In this document: positions 246 through 40,947 of the stretch, piece after piece
How the letters are laid out: the number at the start of each line of letters is the position of its first letter
How positions within the stretch are numbered: position 1 is the stretch's first letter
Source of the DNA: Isoptericola sp. AK164
GTDB taxonomy: Bacteria; Actinomycetota; Actinomycetes; Actinomycetales; Cellulomonadaceae
DNA length: 64,000 nucleotides
Assembly (NCBI RefSeq): GCF_029643425.1
Contig: NZ_CP119106.1
Coordinates: forward strand, 558,001-622,000
Reading direction: 5' to 3'
Made by a program: the position numbers and the translations under genes
Notes under the pieces: model-generated
What the model was told of the DNA's origin: nothing
Seen by the model: the letters and a program-made list of their open reading frames with translations, nothing else
The model's database searches: none

Positions 246-295
246 TTGCGCCGCACGGGAGGACACGGGTACCTTGGAGGCGTTGAAACGATTCA
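246..295 (+). promoter_or_regulatory. rhaM promoter with TGAA-N4-TTCA operator
   Basis: TTGCGC (246-251) and TACCTT (270-275), 18 bp apart, form a plausible sigma-70-type promoter. TGAAACGATTCA at 284-295 lies just downstream, about 32 bp before the rhaM start, where a bound repressor would block transcription. The same 12-bp palindrome type precedes all three PL11 lyase genes in this window, which argues for a shared regulator. Confidence 0.55.
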
Positions 296-326
296 TCGCG
301 CGTCGACGATGATGCGAGGAGGAACA

Positions 327-11666: not shown

Positions 11667-12689
11667 GTGGCCAGAGCGCGGTTGCAGGACGTCGCCGACC
11701 GGGCCGGGGTGTCCCTGGCGACCGCGTCGCGGGTGCTCAACGGGTCGGCCCGCCAGCCCGGACCCGAGCTGGTCAGCCGTGTGCGCGCGGCCGCGGCGGA
11801 GCTCGGCTACGTCGTCAACGCGCAGGCCCAGGCGCTGGCCCGGTCGCGCACCGGCCTGCTCGGTCTCGTGGTGCAGGACATCTCCGACCCCTACTTCTCC
11901 TCGATCGCCGCCGGTGCGCAGGCCGCCGCCCGCGAGCACGGGCGCATGGTCCTGCTGGCCTCCACCGACCGCGACCCGTCCGCCGAGCACGACGCCGTCG
12001 CGGCCTTCGCCGCCCACCGGGTCGACGCCGTCGTCGTGGTCGGCACCCGGTGGTCGGCCGAGGAGGACGCTCCGGTGGCCGCCGAGCTCGCCGCGTTCGA
12101 GGCGTCCGGGGGGCGCGCGGTCGTCGTCGGGCAGCCGCTGGGACCGGCCGTCGTGGTGCGTCCGCCCAACGCCGAGGGTGCCGCGGACCTCGCGACCGCG
12201 CTGCTGGCCGAGGGGCACCGGCGGTTCGTCCTGCTCAGCGCCGCGAGCCGCGTCCGCACGGCGCAGGAGCGCGCCGGGTCGTTCGCCGAGGCCGTGACCG
12301 CCGGCGGCGGCGAGGTCGTGGAGGTCGTCGAGCGCGAGTTCTCCCGCGACGGCGGGTACGCGGCCGGCGACCGGGTCGCCGAGCTGGCGCGCGCCGCGGT
12401 CGCCGATGGTCTCGACGCCCCGTGCGTCTTCGCGGTGAGCGACGTCATGGCGATCGGTCTGATCGCCCGGCTGCGCGATATCGGTGTCGGCGTGCCCCGC
12501 GACGTCCGGGTGGCGGGCTTCGACGACATCCCCACCCTCCACGACCACGTCCCGGCCGTGTCCACGGTGCACATCCCGCTGGAGGAGATGGGGCGGCTGG
12601 CCGTGGCGGCCGCCGTGTCCGAGGACGGTGCCGACGTCGGCGCCTCCGTCGGGCACGAGGTCGTGCTGCGCGAGTCCACCGCGCGCTGA
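11667..12689 (+). CDS. LacI-family transcriptional regulator
   Basis: A 340-residue repressor-type protein. The N-terminal helix-turn-helix reads LQDVADRAGVSLATASRVLN (residues 5-24), followed by a hinge and a periplasmic-binding-protein-like effector domain from about residue 60, with typical GLVVQDISDPYFSSIAAG and AGFDDIPTLHDHVPAVSTV. The GTG start at 11667 has GGACGAGGAGGA just upstream; an open frame beginning at 11505 is longer than the family needs. It is divergent from the oxidoreductase/DUF993/isomerase operon and very likely controls it through the palindrome at 11554. Confidence 0.88.
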   Translation: MARARLQDVADRAGVSLATASRVLNGSARQPGPELVSRVRAAAAELGYVVNAQAQALARSRTGLLGLVVQDISDPYFSSIAAGAQAAAREHGRMVLLASTDRDPSAEHDAVAAFAAHRVDAVVVVGTRWSAEEDAPVAAELAAFEASGGRAVVVGQPLGPAVVVRPPNAEGAADLATALLAEGHRRFVLLSAASRVRTAQERAGSFAEAVTAGGGEVVEVVEREFSRDGGYAAGDRVAELARAAVADGLDAPCVFAVSDVMAIGLIARLRDIGVGVPRDVRVAGFDDIPTLHDHVPAVSTVHIPLEEMGRLAVAAAVSEDGADVGASVGHEVVLRESTAR

Positions 12690-12702
12690 GGATCAGCGCT
12701 CG

Positions 12703-13320
12703 TCAGCTCTCGTCGCCGGGGGTCAGGCGCATCAGGACGCGCGGGAAGCCGTCGAGCCGCGACGACGTCGCGGCGGCGACCTGGAACCCCGCACGCTCGA
12801 ACATCGCCCGGGTGCCGACGTAGGCCATCGTGGTGTCGACGGTCTCGCCCCGGTTGTCCAGCGGGTACGCCTCGACGGCGGGTGCGCCGCGATCCAGCGC
12901 GAACCGGACGGCTCCGGCGATCAGCGGTGCGGTCAGGCCGGTCCCGCGGTACCCGGGCCGCACGCGCAGGCACCACAGCGACCACACGTCGAGGTCGTCG
13001 ACGTGCGGGATCGAACGGCTTCGCGCGAAGGCCGTGTCCGCGCGGGGGTGGATCGCGGCCCAGGCCACGGGCTCGCCGCCGAGGGAGGCGATGACGCCGG
13101 GCGGCGGGTCCTCGGCGCAGAGCTCGCGCACCCGCTCGCGCCGCGCCGGTCCGCGCAGGCGCCGGTTCTCCGCGGACCCGATCCGGTAGCCCAGGCAGAA
13201 GCAGACGGTCGCGTCCGGGCGTCGGGGGCCGACGAGAGCGGTGACGTCGTCGAGGTCCGAGGCGGCGTGCACCGCGACCGGTGCCGGCGGCGGCCCGCCG
13301 GGCGCGGCGGCTCGGGGCAT
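12703..13320 (-). CDS. GNAT family N-acetyltransferase
   Basis: A 205-residue acyl-CoA-dependent acetyltransferase. The acetyl-CoA binding motif A is CLRVRPGYRGTGLTAPLI near residues 118-135 (R/Q-x-x-G-x-G/A form), followed by a helix and AMFERAGF near the C terminus, the usual GNAT motif B region. It is convergent with the LacI gene (13 bp apart) and divergent from the PL11 gene. Substrate not predictable; such genes are common singletons and it may have no link to sugar metabolism. Confidence 0.75.
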   Translation of the reverse strand: MPRAAAPGGPPPAPVAVHAASDLDDVTALVGPRRPDATVCFCLGYRIGSAENRRLRGPARRERVRELCAEDPPPGVIASLGGEPVAWAAIHPRADTAFARSRSIPHVDDLDVWSLWCLRVRPGYRGTGLTAPLIAGAVRFALDRGAPAVEAYPLDNRGETVDTTMAYVGTRAMFERAGFQVAAATSSRLDGFPRVLMRLTPGDES

Positions 13321-13421
13321 CGCTGCACCTCCCGCGACACGGCGTCCGGAGGATTCCGGACACCTCCGATCCTCGTGGTCCCGTCCCGGCGGGGCAACGG
13401 GAGGCGACGGATGCGTGCCCC

Positions 13422-13468
13422 TGGCACATGTCGCCGTCGTGCCCTAGGGTCGTGTGTGAATCGATACA
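13422..13468 (+). promoter_or_regulatory. Promoter and TGAA-N4-TTCA-like operator of the first PL11 lyase gene
   Basis: TGGCAC (13422-13427), a 17-bp spacer and TAGGGT (13445-13450) form a candidate promoter. TGAATCGATACA at 13457-13468 differs by one base from the perfect palindrome TGAATCGATTCA and lies right at the expected transcription start. It matches the sites before rhaM and the other two PL11 genes. The leader before the ATG at 13579 would be about 120 nt. Confidence 0.55.
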
Positions 13469-13578
13469 AGATGTCGGTTCAACGCTCCGACGCTGTGGCG
13501 AGGACGCCGACCGGCGTGCCGACGTGGTCACCTCCGTCGAGCGTGTTCATCGATGCAACGACGCATGGAAGGAACCTG

Positions 13579-15942
13579 ATGCGACGACGCAGGACCACCT
13601 GGCTGGCGGCGAGCGCCGCGGCCTGCAGCCTCATCGTCCCGACGGCGGCCGCCACCGCGGTACCGCCCTCGCACGCCGGGCCGGACGACACCGTCCAGCT
13701 CGAGGCCCTCGACCGCGGGCTGGTCGCCGTCACCACCGACGACGGTGTCTACCTCGGCTGGCGCCTCCTGGGCTCCGAGGTCACCGGCGCCACGTCCGAC
13801 GGCATGACCGGGGCGGACTTCGCCGTCTACCGCGACGGCGAGAGGATCGCCACCGTCACCGACTCCACCAACTACCTCGACACCGCCGGGACTCCGGACT
13901 CCCGCTACCGGGTCGTGCCCGTGGTCGACGGCACGGAGCAGCGGCGCGACCGCTCCGCCGTCGTCACCCCCTGGGGGCAGGACCACCGGGCGATCGCGAT
14001 GAACAAGCCCGACGACGGCGTCACCCTGGTCGTCGAGGAGTACAGCTACTCCGCGAACGACCTGTCGGTGGCCGACCTCGACGGCGACGACGAGCTCGAG
14101 CTCGTCGTCCAGTGGGACCCCTCCAACGCCAAGGACGTCTCCCAGAAGGGCTACACCGGCAACACCTATCTCGACGCCTACGAGATGGACGGCACCCAGC
14201 TCTGGCGCATCGACCTCGGCGTCAACATCCGGTCCGGAGCCCACTACACCCAGTTCCCCGTCTACGACTTCGACGGGGACGGCCGGGCCGAGGTCATGGT
14301 CAAGACGGCCCCGGGCACGAAGGCCACGCGCTACACCCCGAGCGGGCAGGTCAGGGACACCCGCCACGTGCAGATCCCGGCGGACGACGTCGCCGCCGGC
14401 ATCACGCACGACGACGACTACCGCATGAGCGCCGACGACTACCTCGAGCACGTCGTCGACATGTTCGCCGGCTGGACCGAGAACCCCGAGGTGTCCTCCG
14501 GCCAGTGGCCCGCCACCCTCAAGGAGGCGTTCGCCGACGCGATGCCCGGCATCGACGACCCCACCTCGGAGAACTACCTCCCGGACTACGCGTACCCGCT
14601 GTCCGCGGCGGACGCCCGGGCCACGGCCGAGTACTTCGTCGACGTCTACGCTCCCGCGCGCAGCGGCCGCAACGACCTGCGCACCTTCGAGGGCTTCGTC
14701 GTCTCCGGCCCCGAGTACCTCTCGGTCTTCGACGGGAAGTCCGGCAAGCCGCTCGAGACCGTCGACTACACGCCCGCCCGGTACGACGACGGGCTGCGGT
14801 GGGGCGACTACGCCATGTCCCGCATCGAGCCGGGCAACCGGGTCGACCGCTTCCTGGCCGGCGTCTCCTACCTCGACGGCGAGCACCCCTCGGCCGTGTT
14901 CGCCCGCGGCTACTACACGCGCACCACGCTCGTCGCCTACGACTGGGACGGCCGTGAGCTGACGCAGCGCTGGGACGTCGACTCCGGGTGGACGCCGATG
15001 GACAACCCGTTCAACGACGGTCCGCACGGCACCCCGGGCACCGACCCCGAGTTCGGCCGGATCACCACGCAGGGCCAGCACTCGATGTCCTCGGCCGACC
15101 TGGACGGAGACGGCAAGCAGGAGATCCTCTACGGCGCCGCCGCCATCGACCACGACGGCTCGCTGCTGTGGAACGCCACGGCCGAGATGCCGCCCGAGTC
15201 CGCGAACCCCGGGGCCGAGGCGGGGCTGGGGCACGGCGACGCCATGCACGTCACCGACATCCTGCCCGAGCGCCCGGGCCTGGAGGCGTTCATGGTGCAC
15301 GAGGGCGGCCCGTGGGCCCCGTTCGGCACCTCGCTGCTCGACGCCGCCACCGGCGAGGTCATCGAGGGCGTCTACTCGGGCCGCGACACCGGTCGCGGGA
15401 TGATCGGCGACGTCCGGCCGGACGTGCCGGGCATCGAGATGTGGTCCTCCATGCCGGGCGGCACCGACGCCTCCGGTCTGCTCGACTCGGACTGGAACAC
15501 GCTGTCGGCGTCGACCCCGGGGACGAACCAGTCGGTGCGCTGGGCCGCGGACGGGTCCACGCAGGTCTTCGACTACGACCGCCTCTCGAACGACGTGCGC
15601 GAGTGGGAGCCGAAGATCGTCGACTGGGCCTCCGGCTCCGAGCGCGTGCTGGAGGGCACGCTGACCAACAACGACACCAAGGGCAACGCCGGTCTGATCG
15701 CCGACGTCCTCGGTGACTGGCGCGAGGAGATCCTCGTGCGGTCGGCCGACTCCTCCGAGATCCGGCTCTACACCTCGACCGAGGTGACGGACACCAAGAT
15801 GTACACGCTGCTGCACGACCCCCAGTACCGCGCGGAGGTCGCCCGCCAGCAGACCGCGTACAACCAGCCCTCCTACCCGGGCTTCTACCTCGCCTCGGAC
15901 ACCGACTACACGGAGGTGCCGCTGCCGCCGAACGCCGGCTGA
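13579..15942 (+). CDS. Secreted rhamnogalacturonan lyase, PL11
   Basis: A 787-residue polysaccharide lyase family 11 enzyme that cuts rhamnogalacturonan I by beta-elimination. A Sec signal peptide (MRRRRTTWLAASAAAC..., hydrophobic to about residue 27) leads directly into the beta-propeller domain. Calcium-binding-type repeats such as VADLDGDDELE, YDFDGDGRAEVMVKT and SADLDGDGKQE, together with GYTGNTYLDAYEMDG, are diagnostic of the family. It has a single catalytic domain, without the FnIII and carbohydrate-binding modules of its two paralogues. It carries an insertion of about 100 residues (roughly 252-372) that they lack. GAAGGA precedes the ATG; an upstream in-frame extension is rejected because it removes the signal peptide. 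Confidence 0.9.
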   Translation: MRRRRTTWLAASAAACSLIVPTAAATAVPPSHAGPDDTVQLEALDRGLVAVTTDDGVYLGWRLLGSEVTGATSDGMTGADFAVYRDGERIATVTDSTNYLDTAGTPDSRYRVVPVVDGTEQRRDRSAVVTPWGQDHRAIAMNKPDDGVTLVVEEYSYSANDLSVADLDGDDELELVVQWDPSNAKDVSQKGYTGNTYLDAYEMDGTQLWRIDLGVNIRSGAHYTQFPVYDFDGDGRAEVMVKTAPGTKATRYTPSGQVRDTRHVQIPADDVAAGITHDDDYRMSADDYLEHVVDMFAGWTENPEVSSGQWPATLKEAFADAMPGIDDPTSENYLPDYAYPLSAADARATAEYFVDVYAPARSGRNDLRTFEGFVVSGPEYLSVFDGKSGKPLETVDYTPARYDDGLRWGDYAMSRIEPGNRVDRFLAGVSYLDGEHPSAVFARGYYTRTTLVAYDWDGRELTQRWDVDSGWTPMDNPFNDGPHGTPGTDPEFGRITTQGQHSMSSADLDGDGKQEILYGAAAIDHDGSLLWNATAEMPPESANPGAEAGLGHGDAMHVTDILPERPGLEAFMVHEGGPWAPFGTSLLDAATGEVIEGVYSGRDTGRGMIGDVRPDVPGIEMWSSMPGGTDASGLLDSDWNTLSASTPGTNQSVRWAADGSTQVFDYDRLSNDVREWEPKIVDWASGSERVLEGTLTNNDTKGNAGLIADVLGDWREEILVRSADSSEIRLYTSTEVTDTKMYTLLHDPQYRAEVARQQTAYNQPSYPGFYLASDTDYTEVPLPPNAG

Positions 15943-24726: not shown

Positions 24727-24782
24727 TGGACAGCGCTATCCCTGACCGCCATGATGGGGGTGCGCGTTGATGAATCCATTCA
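24727..24782 (+). promoter_or_regulatory. Promoter and operator of the second PL11 lyase gene
   Basis: TGGACA (24727-24732), a 17-bp spacer and CATGAT (24750-24755) form the promoter. TGAATCCATTCA (24771-24782) starts 16 bp after the -10, placing a repressor just past the start site. The third PL11 gene has exactly the same boxes, spacer and operator at 28242-28297. The leader of about 85 nt after the operator is also similar between the two. Confidence 0.65.
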
Positions 24783-24868
24783 GAAAATCTGTCCAAGAAC
24801 CTCTCACCGGCGAGAGGGGCGCGCACCGGCTGCCAGCCGGACTCGATGACGAGACGACGAGGTGACCC

Positions 24869-28384: not shown

Positions 28385-31300
28385 GTGCATCAGCCCAGCA
28401 GGCACTCACGTGCCGAGCGAGCAAGCGCTTACCAGCACCAACCGGACAACCCGACCGCTCCGACCGCCCGGACCGCCAGGTCCCTCGTGGCCGGTGCCGC
28501 CGCCGCAGCCCTCGTGCTGCCGCTCCTGCCCGCCGCCGCGACCGCGGCCGAGGAGGAGCCTGCCCAGTGGTCCTTCGACTTCGGCACCGCAGACAGCCCC
28601 GTCGCGGAGGGCTTCACGCAGGTCCACGGCGGCACCGCCTACAGCGCGGAGACCGGCTTCGGCATCACCACGGGTGAGCAGGCCTCCCGCGACCGCTCCA
28701 CCGACGTCGACCCCCTCACCGGAGACTTCGTGCTCGGGTCCGACTGGGAGTTCGCGGTGGACGTGCCGAACGGCACCTACGACATCGAGGTCTGGACCGG
28801 GGACACCCTCGCGGGGACCTCGAGCGTGCGGACCTCCGTGTCTCCCGAGGGCGGCGAGGCCACCAACATCTACGCCGACGCCGAGCAGACCGCCAGCGGC
28901 ACGCTGTCCGCCGAGGTCTCCGACGGCCAGCTCAACCTCGGCATCACCGGCAAGGGCTACGGCTACGTCAACGGCATCCAGATCACGGAGTCGACCGGCG
29001 ACGGCGGCGACGACGGGTCCGGTGACGGCGGGGGCGACGACGGGTCCGGCGACGGCGGCACCACCGGTGCCGCCGGTCCCGAGAACGTCCGCATCGCCCA
29101 CGCGAGCGCCGACCAGGTCGTCGTGCGCTGGAACGAGGTCGCCGGTGCCAGCGAGTACGTGCTGACCCGCAGCGACGCCGTGGACGGCGAGTACACCGAG
29201 ATCGCCCGGACCGGGTCGCGCGAGGTGTTCCACGCCGACACCGACGTCGACACCTCCGCCGTGCACTACTACCGCGCGCACGCCGTGACCGCGGACGGCC
29301 TCACCGAGGCGTCCGCGCCGGTGGTCAGCACGCTGGCGAGCGAGCCGAGCTTCCCCGAGTCCGGCACCCTGCAGATCGACCTCGGCTCCGGGGCCGTGGC
29401 CGACGGTGCGGTCGGCGTCGACGCCGACACCGCGTACACCGCCGAGAACCGCCTCGGGTTCGTCGACACCTCCGTGGTGACGGCGACGGACGACGGCGGC
29501 GACAACGCCCTGCGCGGCGACTTCGTCACGACCGACGGCGGACAGCTCGTCGTCGACCTGCCGAACGGCGACTACACGGTCGACCTGATCGCCGGCGCGG
29601 CCGACGCCGCCACGGACGTCGCGATCACCGCCGAGCAGATGGCCAAGGTCCAGCAGACCGAGCGGGCTGCCGGCGAATACCTCGAGATGTCGTTCGACAT
29701 CGCCCTCGTGGACTCCCAGCTCAACCTGCAGATCGCCGGCGGCGCCGCGAACCTCAACGCGCTGACGATCACGCGTCTGGGCGACCGCGACGCGGCCGAC
29801 CGTCCGACCGCATTCGTCACCGGCGACTCGACCGTCCAGACGTACGACGAGTACTGGGCGCCGCAGGCCGGCTGGGGTCAGATGATCGAGCGGTTCCTGT
29901 CCGACGACGTCGCGGTGGACAACCACGCCATCGGCGGCCGGTCCTCGAAGAACTTCATCAGCCAGGGCCGCCTCGACACCGTGCTGAAGCAGATCCGTCC
30001 GGGCGACTACCTGTACGTCCAGTTCGGCCACAACGACAACAGCTACGGGGTCGACGACCGCTGGGCCGCCCCGGGCGACTACGCCTGGTACCTGCGCACC
30101 TTCGTCGAGGGGGCCGTCCAGCGCGGCGCCCAGCCGATCCTGGTCACGCCGGTCTCGCGCCGGTCGTTCGACCCGGACACCGGGGAGTTCAACGTCTCCT
30201 TCCCGGACTACGTCCAGGCCGCCACGGACGTCGCCGCCGCCACGGGCACCCCGCTGGTGGACCTGTCGGCCTCCTCGCGGGCCTACCTGAACGAGATCGG
30301 GCCGGAGGCCGCCAAGAGCGTGTTCCTGCACGTGCCGGCCGGGGTGTACCCGAACCGACCCAACGGCACGACGGACGACACCCACTTCCAGGAGTACGGC
30401 GCCATCCAGATGGCCCGCCTGGTCGCGCTGGACACCGCCGAGCTGGACGTCCCGCTCGCGGACGAGGTCGTGGACGCCGAGCCGCCGGCCGACGTCCCCG
30501 AGGCGCCGGCCGGCGTCGTCGCGGGCAACATCTCCGCCTCGAGCGCCACCCTGACGTGGACCGAGGTGGAGGGCGCCGACATCTACAATGTGTTCGCCAA
30601 GGCGTCCGACGCCGGGGACGACGCCTGGGACCTCGTCACCACCTCGACCATCGGCGTGGCGAACGTCGGCGGGCTCACCGAGGGCACCTCGTACGACCTG
30701 CGCGTCGTCGCGGTCAACGGGGCGGGCGACTCGGAGCCGTCGGCCACGGTCACGATCGAGACCAAGGCGCCGATCTACAAGTTCGACCTGCAGCTCGCCT
30801 CCAACGGCGTCACCGAGGACGGGTACACCGCCTTCGACGACACCACGCTGTACACCGCCGAGCTCGGCTACGGCTTCACCTCGGACTCCGGTCCCGGTGG
30901 CCGCGACCGCGGCACCGGCGACGGCCAGCTCGACGACCTGCAGCGCGACTTCCTGCTGCCGAGCGCCGGCACCCCGATGCGGTTCGACGTGCCGAACGGC
31001 ACCTACGCCGTCGAGGTGATCTGGGGTGACCTCATCGGGACCGCCCGTCTGGGCGTGACCATCGAGGGCACCGACTACGGCTCGTCGAACGCCGGCCGTG
31101 GCGGCACCTCCAGCAAGATCGTCCAGCCGGTGGTCGTCACCGACGGGACGATCGACATCGTCGCCGAGGGCTGGTTCAACGGCCTGACGATCACGCCGCT
31201 GCTGTACGCGCCGACCGAGCTCACCGCCGGCGACGTGTCCATCGACGGGTCCGCCGTCGAGGTCCCGCTGAGCTGGCAGCCGGCCGAGGACGTGGCGGGC

Positions 31301-33886
31301 TACCGCGTCTACCGCCTCGCCGAGGGCGCGGCGGAGCCGACGGCGCTCGCCGACGTCGAGTCCGGCGTGACCGAGTTCGTGGACACCACGGCGGACGTCG
31401 GCCTGCAGTACACCTACACCGTCGTGGCGACGGACGACGCCGGCAACGAGTCGGTGCCGTCGAACGAGCTCGGGCTGACGACGGTGGACCCGGACGTCCC
31501 GACCGCCCCGACGCCGTCGGGCCTGGCCGTGGGCGACATCGCCAAGAACGCGGTCTCGCTGGGCTGGGAGCCCGTCGAGGACGCGCTCTTCTACCACGTG
31601 TACCGCGAGGACAAGGGCGGCGAGCTGGTCCTGATCGACCGGGCTGCGGACGCGCAGTACACCGACACCGACGTGCTCACCACCGTCGAGTACACCTACG
31701 CGGTGGCCTCGGTGAACGCCGGTGGTGTCTCCGAGCTGTCGGAGACGGTGACCTCGGAGGCCGTGACGAACCTGTCGCGGCAGGCCGAGCGCATCGGCCG
31801 CCAGCCCGTCGCGGCGCAGTCCGAGGACGGCGTCTACGTCGGCTGGCGGATGCTGGGCGAGGACCCGGCGTCGATCGCGTTCCACGTCTACCGCGACGGC
31901 GAGCTGCTGACGGACGAGCCGATCAGCGGGTCGACGAACTACGTGGACACGGACGGCCAGGCCGGCTCCTCCTACCGGATCTCCTCCGTCGTGGACGGTA
32001 CGGAGCGGTGGGCCACGCAGGAGTTCTCCGTCTGGGACGGCCAGACGCTGGACATCCCGCTGAACAAGCCGGCCGACGCCTACACGAAGGACGGCCAGCC
32101 GTACTCCTACACCGCGAACGACGCCACCGTGGCGGACCTCGACGGTGACGGCGAGTACGAGTACGTCGTCAAGTGGTACCCGACCAACGCCCAGGACAAC
32201 TCCCGTCCCGGGTACACGGGGAACACCTACCTGGACGCCTACGAGCTCGACGGCACCCAGCTGTGGCGCATCGACCTCGGGATCAACATCCGCTCCGGCG
32301 CCCACTACACCCAGTTCCAGGTGTTCGACTACGACGGCGACGGGAAGGCCGAGGTGGCGATGAAGACCGCCGACGGCACCACCGACGGCGTCGGCACGGT
32401 CGTCGGGGACGCCCGGGCGGACTTCCGCCAGTCCAACGGGTACGTGCTGTCCGGTCCGGAGTACCTGTCGGTCTTCGACGGCGCCTCCGGCGAGGTGCTC
32501 GACACGATCGACTACGTGCCGCCGCGCGGCGACGTCGGCTCGTGGGGCGACGGCTACGGCAACCGGGTCGACCGGTTCCTGGCGACGACCGCCTACCTCG
32601 ACGGCGAGACGCCGTCGATGGTGTTCAGCCGTGGCTACTACACCCGGACGGTCATCGCGGCGTTCGACTTCGACGGGGAGGAGCTCAGCGAGCGCTGGGT
32701 CTTCGACTCCGACGAGGCGGGCGACCAGTACCGCGGTCAGGGCAACCACGACATGCAGACCGCGGACGTGGACGGCGACCAGAAGGACGAGCTCGTCTTC
32801 GGGTCGATGACCGTCGACGACGACGGCTCGGTCCTGGTCAACACCGGGCTCGGGCACGGCGACGCCATGCACGTGTCGGACTTCGACCCGTCGCGTCCGG
32901 GCCTGGAGCAGTTCGCGGCCCACGAGAACATCCCCGCCTCGGGCAACCGGGGGGCGACGTTCCGCGACGCCGAGACCGGCGAGATCCTCTGGTCGATCCC
33001 GGCCGAGGTCGACACCGGTCGTGCCGCCATGGCCGACATCGACCCGCGGTACGACGGCGCCGAGGGCTGGGCCGTGGGCGGCGACGCCGCCTGGGACTCG
33101 CCCGTCGGCCAGCTCGTGTCCTCGTCCGGCGAGGTGATCGCCGAGTCCATCCCGGCGGCGAACTTCACCACCTTCTGGGACGGCGACCTGCTGTCCGAGA
33201 TCGGGGACCACGACTGGGACGGTGACGCCGGCGTCGGCGTGCCGACCATCGCCAAGTGGGACTACGAGAACGCCGAGGAGGTGGAGATCTACCGGGCCGA
33301 GGGGACCTTCTCGAACAACTACACCAAGGGCACGCCCGCACTGCAGGCGGACCTGTTCGGTGACTGGCGCGAGGAGATCGTCAGCCGCACGGAGGACTCC
33401 ACCGCCCTGCGGATCTCGACCACGGTGATCCCGACCGAGCACCGGCTTCGGACGCTCATGTCGGACTCCCAGTACCGCCTGGCCGTGGCCTGGCAGAACA
33501 CCGGCTACAACCAGCCGCCGCACACCTCGTACTTCATCGGCGAGGGCATGGAGACGCCCGACGCACCGCGTCTGGCGTACACCACCGAGGCGGAGACGAT
33601 GCCGATCGTCGTCGACGAGGCGCCGAAGAAGGTCGTCGTCACCGCCGAGAAGCTGGACGACGGCACGGTCACGGCGACCGTGCGCAGCGTCCGGGGCGGC
33701 GCCGTGACGTCGGTAGTGCTCCGCGTCGACGGGCAGACGGTCGCCACGGCCAGCCTGCCCGACGGGGCCTCGACGGTCGACTTCGACCTCGGGGCGCTGG
33801 AGCCCGGCAAGTACGAGCTCACCGCCACCGTGGCCAACGAGCTGGGCTCCGTCGAGAGCAGGGGGCGTCAGCTCACGATCTCGTGA
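28385..33886 (+). CDS. Giant secreted rhamnogalacturonan acetylesterase-lyase (CE12 + PL11)
   Basis: A 1,833-residue protein. After a long signal region (to about 55) come a galactose-binding-like module (58-205), an Asp/Gly linker (about 206-234), FnIII, a second module (about 325-470), a CE12 GDSL esterase (about 475-700; Ser482 in GDSTV, a GGRSS block, GHND, and Asp664/His667 in DDTH), FnIII, a third module (about 797-940), two FnIII domains, PL11 (1130 to about 1715) and a C-terminal Ig-like domain. It would remove acetyl groups from galacturonate in rhamnogalacturonan I and cut the backbone. GTG start after GACGAGG. Both activities are inferred from intact motifs. Confidence 0.92.
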   Translation: MHQPSRHSRAERASAYQHQPDNPTAPTARTARSLVAGAAAAALVLPLLPAAATAAEEEPAQWSFDFGTADSPVAEGFTQVHGGTAYSAETGFGITTGEQASRDRSTDVDPLTGDFVLGSDWEFAVDVPNGTYDIEVWTGDTLAGTSSVRTSVSPEGGEATNIYADAEQTASGTLSAEVSDGQLNLGITGKGYGYVNGIQITESTGDGGDDGSGDGGGDDGSGDGGTTGAAGPENVRIAHASADQVVVRWNEVAGASEYVLTRSDAVDGEYTEIARTGSREVFHADTDVDTSAVHYYRAHAVTADGLTEASAPVVSTLASEPSFPESGTLQIDLGSGAVADGAVGVDADTAYTAENRLGFVDTSVVTATDDGGDNALRGDFVTTDGGQLVVDLPNGDYTVDLIAGAADAATDVAITAEQMAKVQQTERAAGEYLEMSFDIALVDSQLNLQIAGGAANLNALTITRLGDRDAADRPTAFVTGDSTVQTYDEYWAPQAGWGQMIERFLSDDVAVDNHAIGGRSSKNFISQGRLDTVLKQIRPGDYLYVQFGHNDNSYGVDDRWAAPGDYAWYLRTFVEGAVQRGAQPILVTPVSRRSFDPDTGEFNVSFPDYVQAATDVAAATGTPLVDLSASSRAYLNEIGPEAAKSVFLHVPAGVYPNRPNGTTDDTHFQEYGAIQMARLVALDTAELDVPLADEVVDAEPPADVPEAPAGVVAGNISASSATLTWTEVEGADIYNVFAKASDAGDDAWDLVTTSTIGVANVGGLTEGTSYDLRVVAVNGAGDSEPSATVTIETKAPIYKFDLQLASNGVTEDGYTAFDDTTLYTAELGYGFTSDSGPGGRDRGTGDGQLDDLQRDFLLPSAGTPMRFDVPNGTYAVEVIWGDLIGTARLGVTIEGTDYGSSNAGRGGTSSKIVQPVVVTDGTIDIVAEGWFNGLTITPLLYAPTELTAGDVSIDGSAVEVPLSWQPAEDVAGYRVYRLAEGAAEPTALADVESGVTEFVDTTADVGLQYTYTVVATDDAGNESVPSNELGLTTVDPDVPTAPTPSGLAVGDIAKNAVSLGWEPVEDALFYHVYREDKGGELVLIDRAADAQYTDTDVLTTVEYTYAVASVNAGGVSELSETVTSEAVTNLSRQAERIGRQPVAAQSEDGVYVGWRMLGEDPASIAFHVYRDGELLTDEPISGSTNYVDTDGQAGSSYRISSVVDGTERWATQEFSVWDGQTLDIPLNKPADAYTKDGQPYSYTANDATVADLDGDGEYEYVVKWYPTNAQDNSRPGYTGNTYLDAYELDGTQLWRIDLGINIRSGAHYTQFQVFDYDGDGKAEVAMKTADGTTDGVGTVVGDARADFRQSNGYVLSGPEYLSVFDGASGEVLDTIDYVPPRGDVGSWGDGYGNRVDRFLATTAYLDGETPSMVFSRGYYTRTVIAAFDFDGEELSERWVFDSDEAGDQYRGQGNHDMQTADVDGDQKDELVFGSMTVDDDGSVLVNTGLGHGDAMHVSDFDPSRPGLEQFAAHENIPASGNRGATFRDAETGEILWSIPAEVDTGRAAMADIDPRYDGAEGWAVGGDAAWDSPVGQLVSSSGEVIAESIPAANFTTFWDGDLLSEIGDHDWDGDAGVGVPTIAKWDYENAEEVEIYRAEGTFSNNYTKGTPALQADLFGDWREEIVSRTEDSTALRISTTVIPTEHRLRTLMSDSQYRLAVAWQNTGYNQPPHTSYFIGEGMETPDAPRLAYTTEAETMPIVVDEAPKKVVVTAEKLDDGTVTATVRSVRGGAVTSVVLRVDGQTVATASLPDGASTVDFDLGALEPGKYELTATVANELGSVESRGRQLTIS

Positions 33887-33913: not shown

Positions 33914-33955
33914 CGGCCGGGGGTCGCCGTCGTCCGCGACGGTGGCCCCCGGCCG
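33914..33955 (+). terminator. Hairpin terminator after the PL11-CE12 gene
   Basis: CGGCCGGGGG (33914-33923) pairs with CCCCCGGCCG (33946-33955) around an inner stem. It differs by one inserted base from the hairpin at 28129-28169. It separates the pectin lyase pair from the KAS III-like gene. Confidence 0.75.
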
Positions 33956-34028
33956 TCGTCGTGCCGGGCGTCGCCGGCGACGTCTCGCCTTCCGAACGGG
34001 CAGGCGGGACAGCGGGCCGCGGCGTGCC

Positions 34029-35066
34029 ATGATCGGAGTCATGCTCTCGCTCCCCGCCGGTGCGGCCGGCTCCCGGATCGTCGGCCTCGGTCACCACCAG
34101 CCCGCCAAGGCCCTGACCAACGACGACATCGCACAGTTCGTCGAGACGAACGACGAGTGGATCCGGTCGCGCACCGGCATCGTCACCCGGCACGTCGCCG
34201 CCGACGACGTCACGGTGGCGGACATGGCCACCGCGGCGGCGGAGCACGCGCTGGCCGACGCCGGGGTGGCGAGCGACGACGTCGACCTGGTGATCGTGGC
34301 CACGACCACCGCGGCCGACCGTTCGCCGAACACCGCGGGCCGGGTGGCCTACGCGCTGCGTACCGGGGTCCAGCCGGGGGCGAGCACGCCGGAGGGCGAG
34401 GACGAGCCGGACCTGCGCGGGGTCGTCGGACCCGGCGTCATCGACGTCAACACCGCCTGCTCCGGGTTCGCCTACGCCGTGGGCCTCGCCGACCAGGCCA
34501 TCCGCGCCGGCAGCGCCCGGACCGCCGTCGTCGTCGGCTCGGAGAAGCTGACGGCGGTGACGGACTGGTCCGACCGGTCCACCTGCATCCTCACGGCCGA
34601 CGGGGCCGGTGCCGCGGTGCTCCAGGCCGCCGAGGAGCCCGGCGTCGGGCAGGTCGTGTGGGGCTCCGAGCCGGAGATCACCCCGGCGGTGCGGATCGAG
34701 GCCCCGGCCGAGCGCTTCGCGCAGGACGGCCGTGCGGTGTTCAAGTGGGCGATCACCCGGGCCGCCGAGCGGGCCCGCCGTGTGGTCGAGGCCTCCGGGC
34801 TCACGCTGGACGACGTCCAGGTGCTGGTGGCCCACCAGGCGAACCTGCGGATCATCGAGCCGCTGGCGAAGTCGCTCGGGCTCGAGGACCGCATCGTGGT
34901 CAGCGACATCACGGAGTCGGGCAACACCTCCGCGGCCTCGATCCCGCTGGGCCTGTCCAAGTGGTGGCATGACGGGCGGATCCCCGCGGGGGTGCCGGCG
35001 CTGCTGTTCGGCTTCGGCGGCGGGTTCACCTGGGCCGGCCAGGTGGTCATGACGCCGCAGCGCTGA
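34029..35066 (+). CDS. 3-oxoacyl-ACP synthase III family protein (FabH-like)
   Basis: A thiolase-fold condensing enzyme of about 345 residues. The catalytic triad is intact: Cys144 in NTACSGFAY, His269 in AHQANLR and Asn299 in SGNTSAAS. TNDEWIRSRTGI is the typical N-terminal signature. FabH condenses an acyl-CoA with malonyl-ACP to start fatty acid synthesis. Here it stands alone among sugar genes with no other fab genes, so a housekeeping role is doubtful and a side role in secondary metabolism or acyl transfer is possible. Two ATGs (34029, 34041) lack a clear ribosome site; the choice is tentative. Confidence 0.82.
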   Translation: MIGVMLSLPAGAAGSRIVGLGHHQPAKALTNDDIAQFVETNDEWIRSRTGIVTRHVAADDVTVADMATAAAEHALADAGVASDDVDLVIVATTTAADRSPNTAGRVAYALRTGVQPGASTPEGEDEPDLRGVVGPGVIDVNTACSGFAYAVGLADQAIRAGSARTAVVVGSEKLTAVTDWSDRSTCILTADGAGAAVLQAAEEPGVGQVVWGSEPEITPAVRIEAPAERFAQDGRAVFKWAITRAAERARRVVEASGLTLDDVQVLVAHQANLRIIEPLAKSLGLEDRIVVSDITESGNTSAASIPLGLSKWWHDGRIPAGVPALLFGFGGGFTWAGQVVMTPQR

Positions 35067-38979: not shown

Positions 38980-40947
38980 TCAGCGCAGGCCGGTGGCCAG
39001 CGCGGCGGCGTCGTCGATGTCGAGCTCCCGGTCCAGCAGGGCCGCCACGACGCCGGTCTCGACGGTCCCGCCGGCGGGGACCCGCAGAGGGGTGTCCCAG
39101 GCCAGGGCGGGGCAGGCGCCGGGGTACTCGGCGGCGCGCAGGAACCAGTGCCGTGCGGGGGAGGTCTGGGTCAGGAGCGTGGTCGTGCTGTGCTCCTCGC
39201 CCCGCGCGTCGCGGTGGCGCTGCACGAATGCCACCCACGGCGAGGTCGAGCCGTGCGCGAGGTCCTCGCCCTCGCCCTCGGCGGACAGCACGCGCGTCCG
39301 GTGCGCCAGCGGGAGCCGCCAGAACAGTCCTCCGTAGCCGGCGCCGGGCCGGCCGTTCGTCGCGGGGGAGCTGATCTGCAGCGGGCCGTGCGCGGCGTGC
39401 AGCGTGGAGCGCCACTCCAGCACCCACCCGTCGTCCAGCAGGCGTGCCCCGACGCGACGTCGCTCGTCGAGCACCGGGCGGCCGTGCTCGTCGGTCCAGG
39501 CGACCGTGTCCAGCAGGACGTTCGGGGACAGCGGGTCGATCGTGGTCTGGACCGACGTCTGGCGGCCGTGGTTGGGCAGCAGCGTCGGGCCGACGTCGGC
39601 GACGAACGTGCGCCCGCCCCAGTAGCTGGTGCCGTTGACGTCGGGCACGGCGAGGCTGACCCCGTAGTGGTGGCGGTGGTCGACCGGGCCCGACTCCGTC
39701 AGCGGGATCCCGGCCAGCGAGCTCACCGGGTGCAGGAACGGTCGCGGCGAGTGGATGGTCGGCAGGTCCTGGCCGGAGTCGTAGCGGGCCAGCGGTGCGC
39801 GGTCGACGCTGCGGTAGAGCGCGGGCACCCCCTGCTCGAGGCTCCAGGCGGGGTCCTGCTCGGCCTGGGTGACCTCCGGGACGGCGGTGGCGGCGGCCAC
39901 CGGGTCCTCGGGCAGGGCCGTGGCGCGCACGGCCGAACGGGGTACCGGTCCGGTGCTCGCGCGGACCTGGAGCTGGACCCCGAAGCGCGTCGTCTCGGCC
40001 GCGTGACCGGCGTCGTCGACCACGGCGTGCAGCTCGCGCCAGGCGTGCCGTCCCAGGTCCTGCTGCGGCACGGCGACGGTGGTCAGTGCCGGGGTGGCGT
40101 AGCGCGCCAGCTCGATGTCGTCGACGCCGCACACCGACAGGTCCGCCGGGACGGCGACGCCGGCCTCGTTCAGGGCGGCGAGCAGCCCGAAGGCCACCAG
40201 GTCGTTGAACGCCACGGCGGCCGTCACGCGGCTGGCCAGGACGTCCGGTGCCGCGGCGTGCCCGGCCGTGATGTCGGAGCCCGCGGGGAGGTCGACGACC
40301 TCGAGGTCCGGGTGACGCTCGCAGCTCGCGGTGAGGCCGCGGCGTCGTGCGATGTCGGAGACCGAGGCGCGGGGACCGGCGACGTAGGCGATGCGCCGGT
40401 GCCCGAGCTCGACGAGGTGCTCGACGACCTGCACCATCGCGTCGGCGTAGTCCACCACCAGGCTCGGGGCGCCGCGCGGGACGTCCCGGTTGACCACCAC
40501 GGCGGGGGAGACCTCCGGCAGCAGGGCGTCGAGCGCGCCGTCGGGCATGCGTGGCGAGACCAGGATGAGCGCGTCGCAGCGTGCGCGCGCCTCCCGGGCG
40601 ATCGACGCCTCGGTGCCGGGGTCCTCGGCCGAGTCCGCCACCAGCACGCGGTAGCCGTCCTCGCCGGCGGCGGAGGTGACGCCGCGCAGGATCTCCTGGA
40701 AGACGGGGTTGGCGAGGTCCGGGACGACGAGGGCCACGGTGGTGGTCCGGCCCAGCGAGAGGCTGCGCGCCACGTTGCTGGGGCGGTAGTTCAGCTCGAT
40801 CGCCGCCTCCTGCACGCGGGCGGAGATCGCGGGGTCCACGGTGCTGCGGCCGTTCATCACCCGGGAGACCGTCGCGCGGGAGACCCCGGCCGCTCGTGCG
40901 ACGTCGGCGATCGTCACCGCGGGTCGGCGCGTGGTCGCACCAGGCAT
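38980..40947 (-). CDS. LacI-type regulator fused to a DUF6807 (PmoA-like) domain
   Basis: One uninterrupted 655-residue frame. Residues 1-335 are a full LacI regulator: helix-turn-helix VTIADVARAAGVSRATVSRV, hinge, and effector domain ending in CGVDDIELARYATPALTTV and QVRASTGPVPRS, the usual LacI end. After a linker of about 35 residues, residues about 373-650 match DUF6807: FLHPVSSLAGIPLTESGPVD, HRHHYGVSLAVPDVNGTSYW, and late IDPLSPNVLLDTVAWTDEHG. Both halves look complete, so a frameshift or sequencing join is unlikely. The DUF6807 part might bind or modify the inducer. GGAGG precedes the ATG. It is divergent from a sugar ABC transporter with paired operators between. Confidence 0.87.
   Translation of the reverse strand: MPGATTRRPAVTIADVARAAGVSRATVSRVMNGRSTVDPAISARVQEAAIELNYRPSNVARSLSLGRTTTVALVVPDLANPVFQEILRGVTSAAGEDGYRVLVADSAEDPGTEASIAREARARCDALILVSPRMPDGALDALLPEVSPAVVVNRDVPRGAPSLVVDYADAMVQVVEHLVELGHRRIAYVAGPRASVSDIARRRGLTASCERHPDLEVVDLPAGSDITAGHAAAPDVLASRVTAAVAFNDLVAFGLLAALNEAGVAVPADLSVCGVDDIELARYATPALTTVAVPQQDLGRHAWRELHAVVDDAGHAAETTRFGVQLQVRASTGPVPRSAVRATALPEDPVAAATAVPEVTQAEQDPAWSLEQGVPALYRSVDRAPLARYDSGQDLPTIHSPRPFLHPVSSLAGIPLTESGPVDHRHHYGVSLAVPDVNGTSYWGGRTFVADVGPTLLPNHGRQTSVQTTIDPLSPNVLLDTVAWTDEHGRPVLDERRRVGARLLDDGWVLEWRSTLHAAHGPLQISSPATNGRPGAGYGGLFWRLPLAHRTRVLSAEGEGEDLAHGSTSPWVAFVQRHRDARGEEHSTTTLLTQTSPARHWFLRAAEYPGACPALAWDTPLRVPAGGTVETGVVAALLDRELDIDDAAALATGLR

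Follow-up and report, generated by a model that had tools for sequence, protein, structure and literature searches.

Proteins that carry a PL11 rhamnogalacturonan lyase and a CE12 acetylesterase in one chain have been described before. Pamy_4308 of Paenibacillus amylolyticus 27C64, a close counterpart of the protein studied here, was reported in 2018 as a secreted 188-kDa protein with PL11, CE12, and CBM37 domains, induced by rhamnogalacturonan I (RG-I) (PMC6339884; our citations of this paper, here and below, refer to excerpts of it). According to the same excerpts, the RG lyases characterised up to 2018 are inhibited by acetylation, and Pamy_4308 "is likely able to cleave acetylated RG-I directly" (PMC6339884). 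A 2023 paper counted 50 CE12:PL11 proteins in CAZy, none of them characterised; one was modelled, and synergy was proposed (PMC10483417). Ruminococcus fusions with the architectures PL11-Doc-CBM35-CE12 and PL11-CE12-CBM13-CBM13-CBM37 have been known since 2014 (PMC4081043). No activity data for any CE12-PL11 fusion were found in the open-licence literature, and later data may exist elsewhere.

Here, we analysed a CE12-PL11 fusion gene from the 3.58-Mb genome of an Isoptericola strain. All positions are given within the window, i.e., the whole 64-kb stretch of DNA that was analysed. We consider it probable (about 0.82) that the product works outside the cell as a bifunctional enzyme on acetylated RG-I, with the esterase and then the lyase acting on the same polymer, spaced by a connector, and that its gene is induced with its locus.

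Gene and module architecture

The fusion gene occupies positions 28385–33886 of the plus strand, starts with GTG, has AGGTGA just 5' of this start, and encodes 1833 aa in a complete frame. The plus strand is the coding strand. The overlapping minus-strand ORF of 1878 aa, antisense to the fusion gene, is not a gene, because GC content at codon positions 1, 2, and 3 (0.67, 0.49, and 0.97) fits the plus strand and because relatives align with the 1833-aa protein end to end. A chance frame in high-GC DNA was ruled out on the same two grounds.

Pfam search of the protein yielded RGL11_C (E = 2.6e-235), RGI_lyase (E = 1.1e-31), Lipase_GDSL (E = 6.8e-9), AGA-YXIM_GBD in three stretches, and fn3; AlphaFold models of the N- and C-terminal halves had mean pLDDT values of 87 and 85. 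Pfam, PDB, and fold matches confirmed the original prediction of a CE12 esterase and a PL11 lyase in a single 1833-residue protein, and its secretion is supported by a predicted N-terminal signal peptide. No cell-wall anchor was seen at the C-terminus when the sequence was read directly. The order of modules is signal peptide, GBD1, FnIII, GBD2 with CE12, FnIII, GBD3, two FnIII, PL11, and a C-terminal beta-sandwich (Table 1). Three galactose-binding-like modules had been predicted; all three hold by family (AGA-YXIM_GBD). GBD2 belongs to the esterase itself, as the N-terminal domain native to the YxiM type, which leaves GBD1 and GBD3 as the only additional modules. These modules may bind sugars. 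CBM35 was rejected as the identity of GBD3, which matches AGA-YXIM_GBD and YxiM and for which no CBM35 match was reported. The four FnIII modules expected from the first reading were all recovered, two by Pfam at a looser threshold and two by module alignment and predicted models. The C-terminal beta-sandwich, whose counterpart in the tandem paralog gave a weak Pfam match to Big_3_5, and the YesX-type loop of the lyase were both absent from that reading.

Table 1. Positions of the features of the fusion gene and of related elements in the window.
Feature	Residues	Position	Strand	Basis or remark
Operator-like palindrome variant		283..296		Motif matches
Third PL11 gene, more distant		12484..15942	+	Start probably near 13.5 kb
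Operator-like palindrome variant		13456..13469		Motif matches
Operator-like palindrome, second copy, upstream of tandem paralog		24770..24783	+	Motif matches
Tandem paralog, GBD-FnIII-FnIII-PL11-Ig, without esterase	1078 aa	24869..28105	+	Pfam, alignment
Operator-like palindrome TTGAATCCATTCAA		28285..28298	+	About 87 bp upstream of fusion start
Predicted signal peptide, long n-region	1–54	28385..28546	+	Direct sequence reading
GBD1 (AGA-YXIM_GBD)	62–189	28568..28951	+	Pfam
FnIII module 1	233–318	29081..29338	+	Module alignment, predicted model
GBD2, N-terminal domain of YxiM-type esterase	326–462	29360..29770	+	2o14 alignment, fold match
CE12/GDSL esterase catalytic domain	470–692	29792..30460	+	Pfam, PDB, fold match
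Esterase triad codon	Ser482	29828..29830	+	
Esterase triad codon	Asp664	30374..30376	+	
Esterase triad codon	His667	30383..30385	+	
FnIII module 2	707–791	30503..30757	+	Pfam
GBD3 (AGA-YXIM_GBD), between esterase and lyase	797–946	30773..31222	+	Pfam
FnIII modules 3 and 4	947–1127	31223..31765	+	FnIII chain 3mpc over 1043–1119; predicted models
PL11 rhamnogalacturonan lyase	1131–1735	31775..33589	+	Pfam, PDB, fold match
YesX-type loop in lyase	1565–1576	33077..33112	+	Alignments
C-terminal beta-sandwich, poorly conserved	about 1740–1833	33590..33883	+	Predicted models

Esterase and lyase domains

The N-terminal part matched B. subtilis YxiM (2o14; E = 1.5e-34 over residues 326–659, covering GBD and esterase) and rhamnogalacturonan acetylesterase (1deo; E = 6.7e-9) among PDB sequences. 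The esterase fold matched 1deo/3c1u at a TM to target of 0.78, including the Aspergillus rhamnogalacturonan acetylesterase. In the fold search with the N-terminal half, YxiM ranked first, yet with a TM to target of only 0.50 and an rmsd of 12, which is probably due to inter-domain angles. The CE12 blocks GDS (G480-D481-S482), GGRS (G517-G518-R519-S520), GHND (G548-H549-N550-D551), and DxxH (D664/H667) are all present. The triad Ser482, Asp664, and His667, placed correctly in the original prediction, and the oxyanion residues Gly517 and Asn550 did not vary among 25 diverse fusions (the query and 24 relatives).

In the C-terminal part, the best PDB sequence match was YesX (2zuy; E = 1.5e-226), and the B. 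licheniformis PL11 enzyme and YesW matched with values to 1e-210. The RGI_lyase beta-sheet domain and the eight-bladed RGL11_C propeller are both present, and the model of this half fitted YesX, YesW, and 4cag with TM to target of 0.96–0.97. Arg1546, Lys1648, and Tyr1708 align with Arg452, Lys535, and Tyr595 of YesW, which we take from the YesW structures to be active-cleft residues with a catalytic role, and are kept in the same 25 fusions. All eight catalytic or oxyanion residues checked were thus retained; this ruled out an inactive domain and agrees with the earlier view that both domains are intact.

The lyase contains an insertion (Table 1) at the position of the YesX loop, where YesW and 4cag, the B. 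licheniformis enzyme, have a gap. In YesX, this loop sets the exo mode of cleavage. The fusion's lyase may be exo- rather than endo-acting (YesX-like, EC 4.2.2.24), a mode that the original prediction had left out of account, because its loop lies at the YesX position and 2zuy carries the title of an exotype lyase; it would then release disaccharides from chain ends while the esterase cleared acetyl groups ahead of it. YesX is also the best match in sequence and structure, but the two loops are unlike in sequence and the structural matches hardly differ (TM to target: YesX 0.96, YesW 0.97), and we rate exo action a little below even odds.

Distribution and spacing of the fusion

In a survey of 200 genomes of the same family, the esterase module had 30 close matches, 29 of which lay in open frames of 1,556–2,176 residues, long enough for the fusion. 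Twenty cases were taken with flanks: PL11 was in the same frame in all 19 intact ones, and in the twentieth, which lies on a short draft contig, a frame change interrupts the sequence. Among GTDB species genomes, 369 relatives were found; in 75 of the best 80 of these, CE12 and PL11 formed a one-frame fusion, in a sample biased towards the fused subfamily, from which the query was taken. The five remaining cases comprised one running off a contig end, two in which the halves lie in overlapping frames and frameshifts are probable, and two two-gene arrangements in Nesterenkonia. Hosts of the fusion include Isoptericola, Cellulomonas, Arthrobacter, Sanguibacter, Demequina, Kribbella, Microbacterium, Streptomyces, and Paenibacillus. 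In the plasmid collection searched, a Paenibacillus cellulosilyticus megaplasmid carried markers of both domains in one frame of 1989 codons; otherwise, just distant or separate matches were obtained.

In this CE12 subfamily, the fused form is the rule (75 of the best 80 of 369 relatives), and its wide occurrence, together with the esterase tree, ruled out a recent, unique event. The original prediction had regarded the fusion as exceptional and separate enzymes as usual. This did not hold, and many such fusions are already in print (PMC6339884, PMC10483417, PMC4081043): the type is published and widespread, and the Isoptericola protein is a further member.

CE12 preceded PL11 in all 75 fusions from the best 80 of the 369 relatives, and the connector between them measured 431–447 aa (mean 438, sd 3.7). 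This near-constant length extended across many families, Bacillota (Paenibacillus) included. The constant core is GBD2-CE12-FnIII-GBD3-FnIII-FnIII-PL11. Outside it, GBD1 and the C-terminal domain vary or are lacking; GBD1 is optional, being absent from several relatives.

In the two Nesterenkonia genomes, the halves are two adjacent secreted proteins (L097:7509-12362 and L113:7449-12350), split after GBD3 in both. Each half carries a signal peptide of its own, and the two peptides are homologous. Because a single change of state on the esterase tree (short search) accounts for the split, it seems to have arisen from the fused form. Sphingomonas sp. R1 also carries CE12 and PL11 as adjacent separate genes. 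Both arrangements speak for a reading in which joining the domains serves only their co-expression and co-secretion at 1:1, without catalytic gain and with each acting on separate polymer molecules. Co-expression alone does not, however, demand a near-constant connector in 75 fusions, and among the rows compared the split occurred just once, as a derived state; we regard this explanation as tentative, with perhaps one chance in three.

Locus and related genes

The locus contains genes for rhamnose isomerase, a class II aldolase/dehydrogenase, an FGGY sugar kinase, lactate utilisation (LUD), a GntR regulator, altronate dehydratase, a binding-protein ABC transporter, and two further PL11 proteins. 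As far as gene content indicates, it fits the breakdown of a rhamnose-galacturonate polymer, and these catabolic genes support RG-I as the likely substrate, in line with the original prediction. The substrate of the esterase itself is a putative one, because acetylated xylan and other pectin also serve as substrates of CE12 enzymes. It is nevertheless improbable that the esterase acts off the lyase's backbone (on acetylated homogalacturonan, xylan, or side chains) and clears neighbouring wall polymers: pectin, rhamnogalacturonan, and xylan are listed as CE12 substrates (PMC10483417) and the NCBIfam pectin acetylesterase model PaeY matched weakly (66.6 bits vs. a cut-off of 1000), but the genes of the locus point specifically to rhamnose and galacturonate and the fold match includes the Aspergillus rhamnogalacturonan acetylesterase.

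Palindromes of the TTGAATCCATTCAA type occur seven times in the window vs. 0.18 expected, with variants upstream of PL11 genes and near rhamnose genes (Table 1). Of 41 relatives, 20 have a similar palindrome close to where the fused frame starts, whereas about 1 would be expected. A regulator may bind at this predicted operator. Elsewhere in the window, a LacI-family regulator and a DUF6807 domain share one 655-residue frame (38980–40947), and a ketoacyl-ACP synthase III-like gene (33942–35066), out of keeping with a pectin locus, lies directly 3' of the fusion.

The tandem paralog is a mosaic relative to the fusion: its PL11 domain is 86% identical and its GBD/FnIII scaffold only about 23–47%, with a sharp identity boundary at the lyase start. 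A PL11 tree places it together with the fused lyases of the Isoptericola genome and of the nearest relative (G042). The simplest reading of these sequence comparisons would be that an older lyase gene acquired sequence from the fusion by module exchange or gene conversion. The third PL11 gene has an insertion of ~100 residues in the lyase domain, between profile positions 116 and 124.

Discussion

In the enzyme that we propose, the N-terminal YxiM-type CE12 esterase would remove O-acetyl groups from the backbone galacturonate of RG-I, and the C-terminal PL11 lyase would then cut the exposed rhamnosyl-galacturonate bonds of the same polymer by beta-elimination. The conserved FnIII-GBD-FnIII-FnIII connector would hold the catalytic domains about 440 residues apart and probably confines both to one stretch of substrate. 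The gene would be induced together with the neighbouring genes for uptake and catabolism of rhamnose and galacturonate. We infer both activities and their order, and prefer this explanation, because of the domain and structure matches, the invariant catalytic residues, the fixed order and spacing, and the locus content, and because, in the excerpts cited, Pamy_4308 is RG-I-induced and RG lyases are inhibited by acetylation (PMC6339884). Against it we count the tandem lyase-only paralog, which has no linked esterase, and the split form in Nesterenkonia, which shows that linkage is not essential.

A bolder proposal, which we consider unlikely as it stands, is that these proteins form a stable, widely shared class of RG-I enzymes in which a fixed-length connector under selection sets the esterase a given distance ahead of an exo-lyase and couples both steps on one chain. 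A single protein performing both steps would be useful for pectin processing, given the inhibition of RG lyases by acetylation noted in the excerpts (PMC6339884), and could explain the use of native pectin by these actinobacteria. The Nesterenkonia split and the lyase-only tandem paralog offer ready-made natural comparisons for the benefit of linkage. The near-constant connector, the derived Nesterenkonia split, and the exo-type loop seem to be unreported in the open-licence literature found.

Like the Isoptericola protein, Pamy_4308 is a single secreted chain with PL11 and CE12, and the deacetylate-then-cleave idea was already proposed for it; by the same excerpts, it differs in coming from Bacillota and in its annotated CBM37, and they name no GBD or FnIII modules for it (PMC6339884). 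HUW50_16055 of Metabacillus sp. KUDC1714 likewise has CE12 first, a middle beta-sandwich, and PL11 last, with the catalytic triad and calcium sites kept (PMC10483417). Its middle module was called CBM35 (PMC10483417), whereas that of Isoptericola is a YxiM-type GBD, the two being compared by description only, and the Isoptericola fusion has an extra N-terminal GBD-FnIII pair. The Ruminococcus fusions share both catalytic families in one chain but differ in the opposite order and in a dockerin or CBM37 (PMC4081043); they probably represent an independent fusion event. B. subtilis YxiM (2o14), YesX (2zuy), and YesW (2z8r) match the respective halves in sequence and fold and are separate proteins there. 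In C. thermocellum, Cthe_0246 (Doc-CBM35-PL11) and Cthe_3141 (CE12-Doc-CBM35-CE12) combine both activities within one predicted regulon and are joined by the cellulosome, as separate chains on a scaffold rather than the single chain of Isoptericola.
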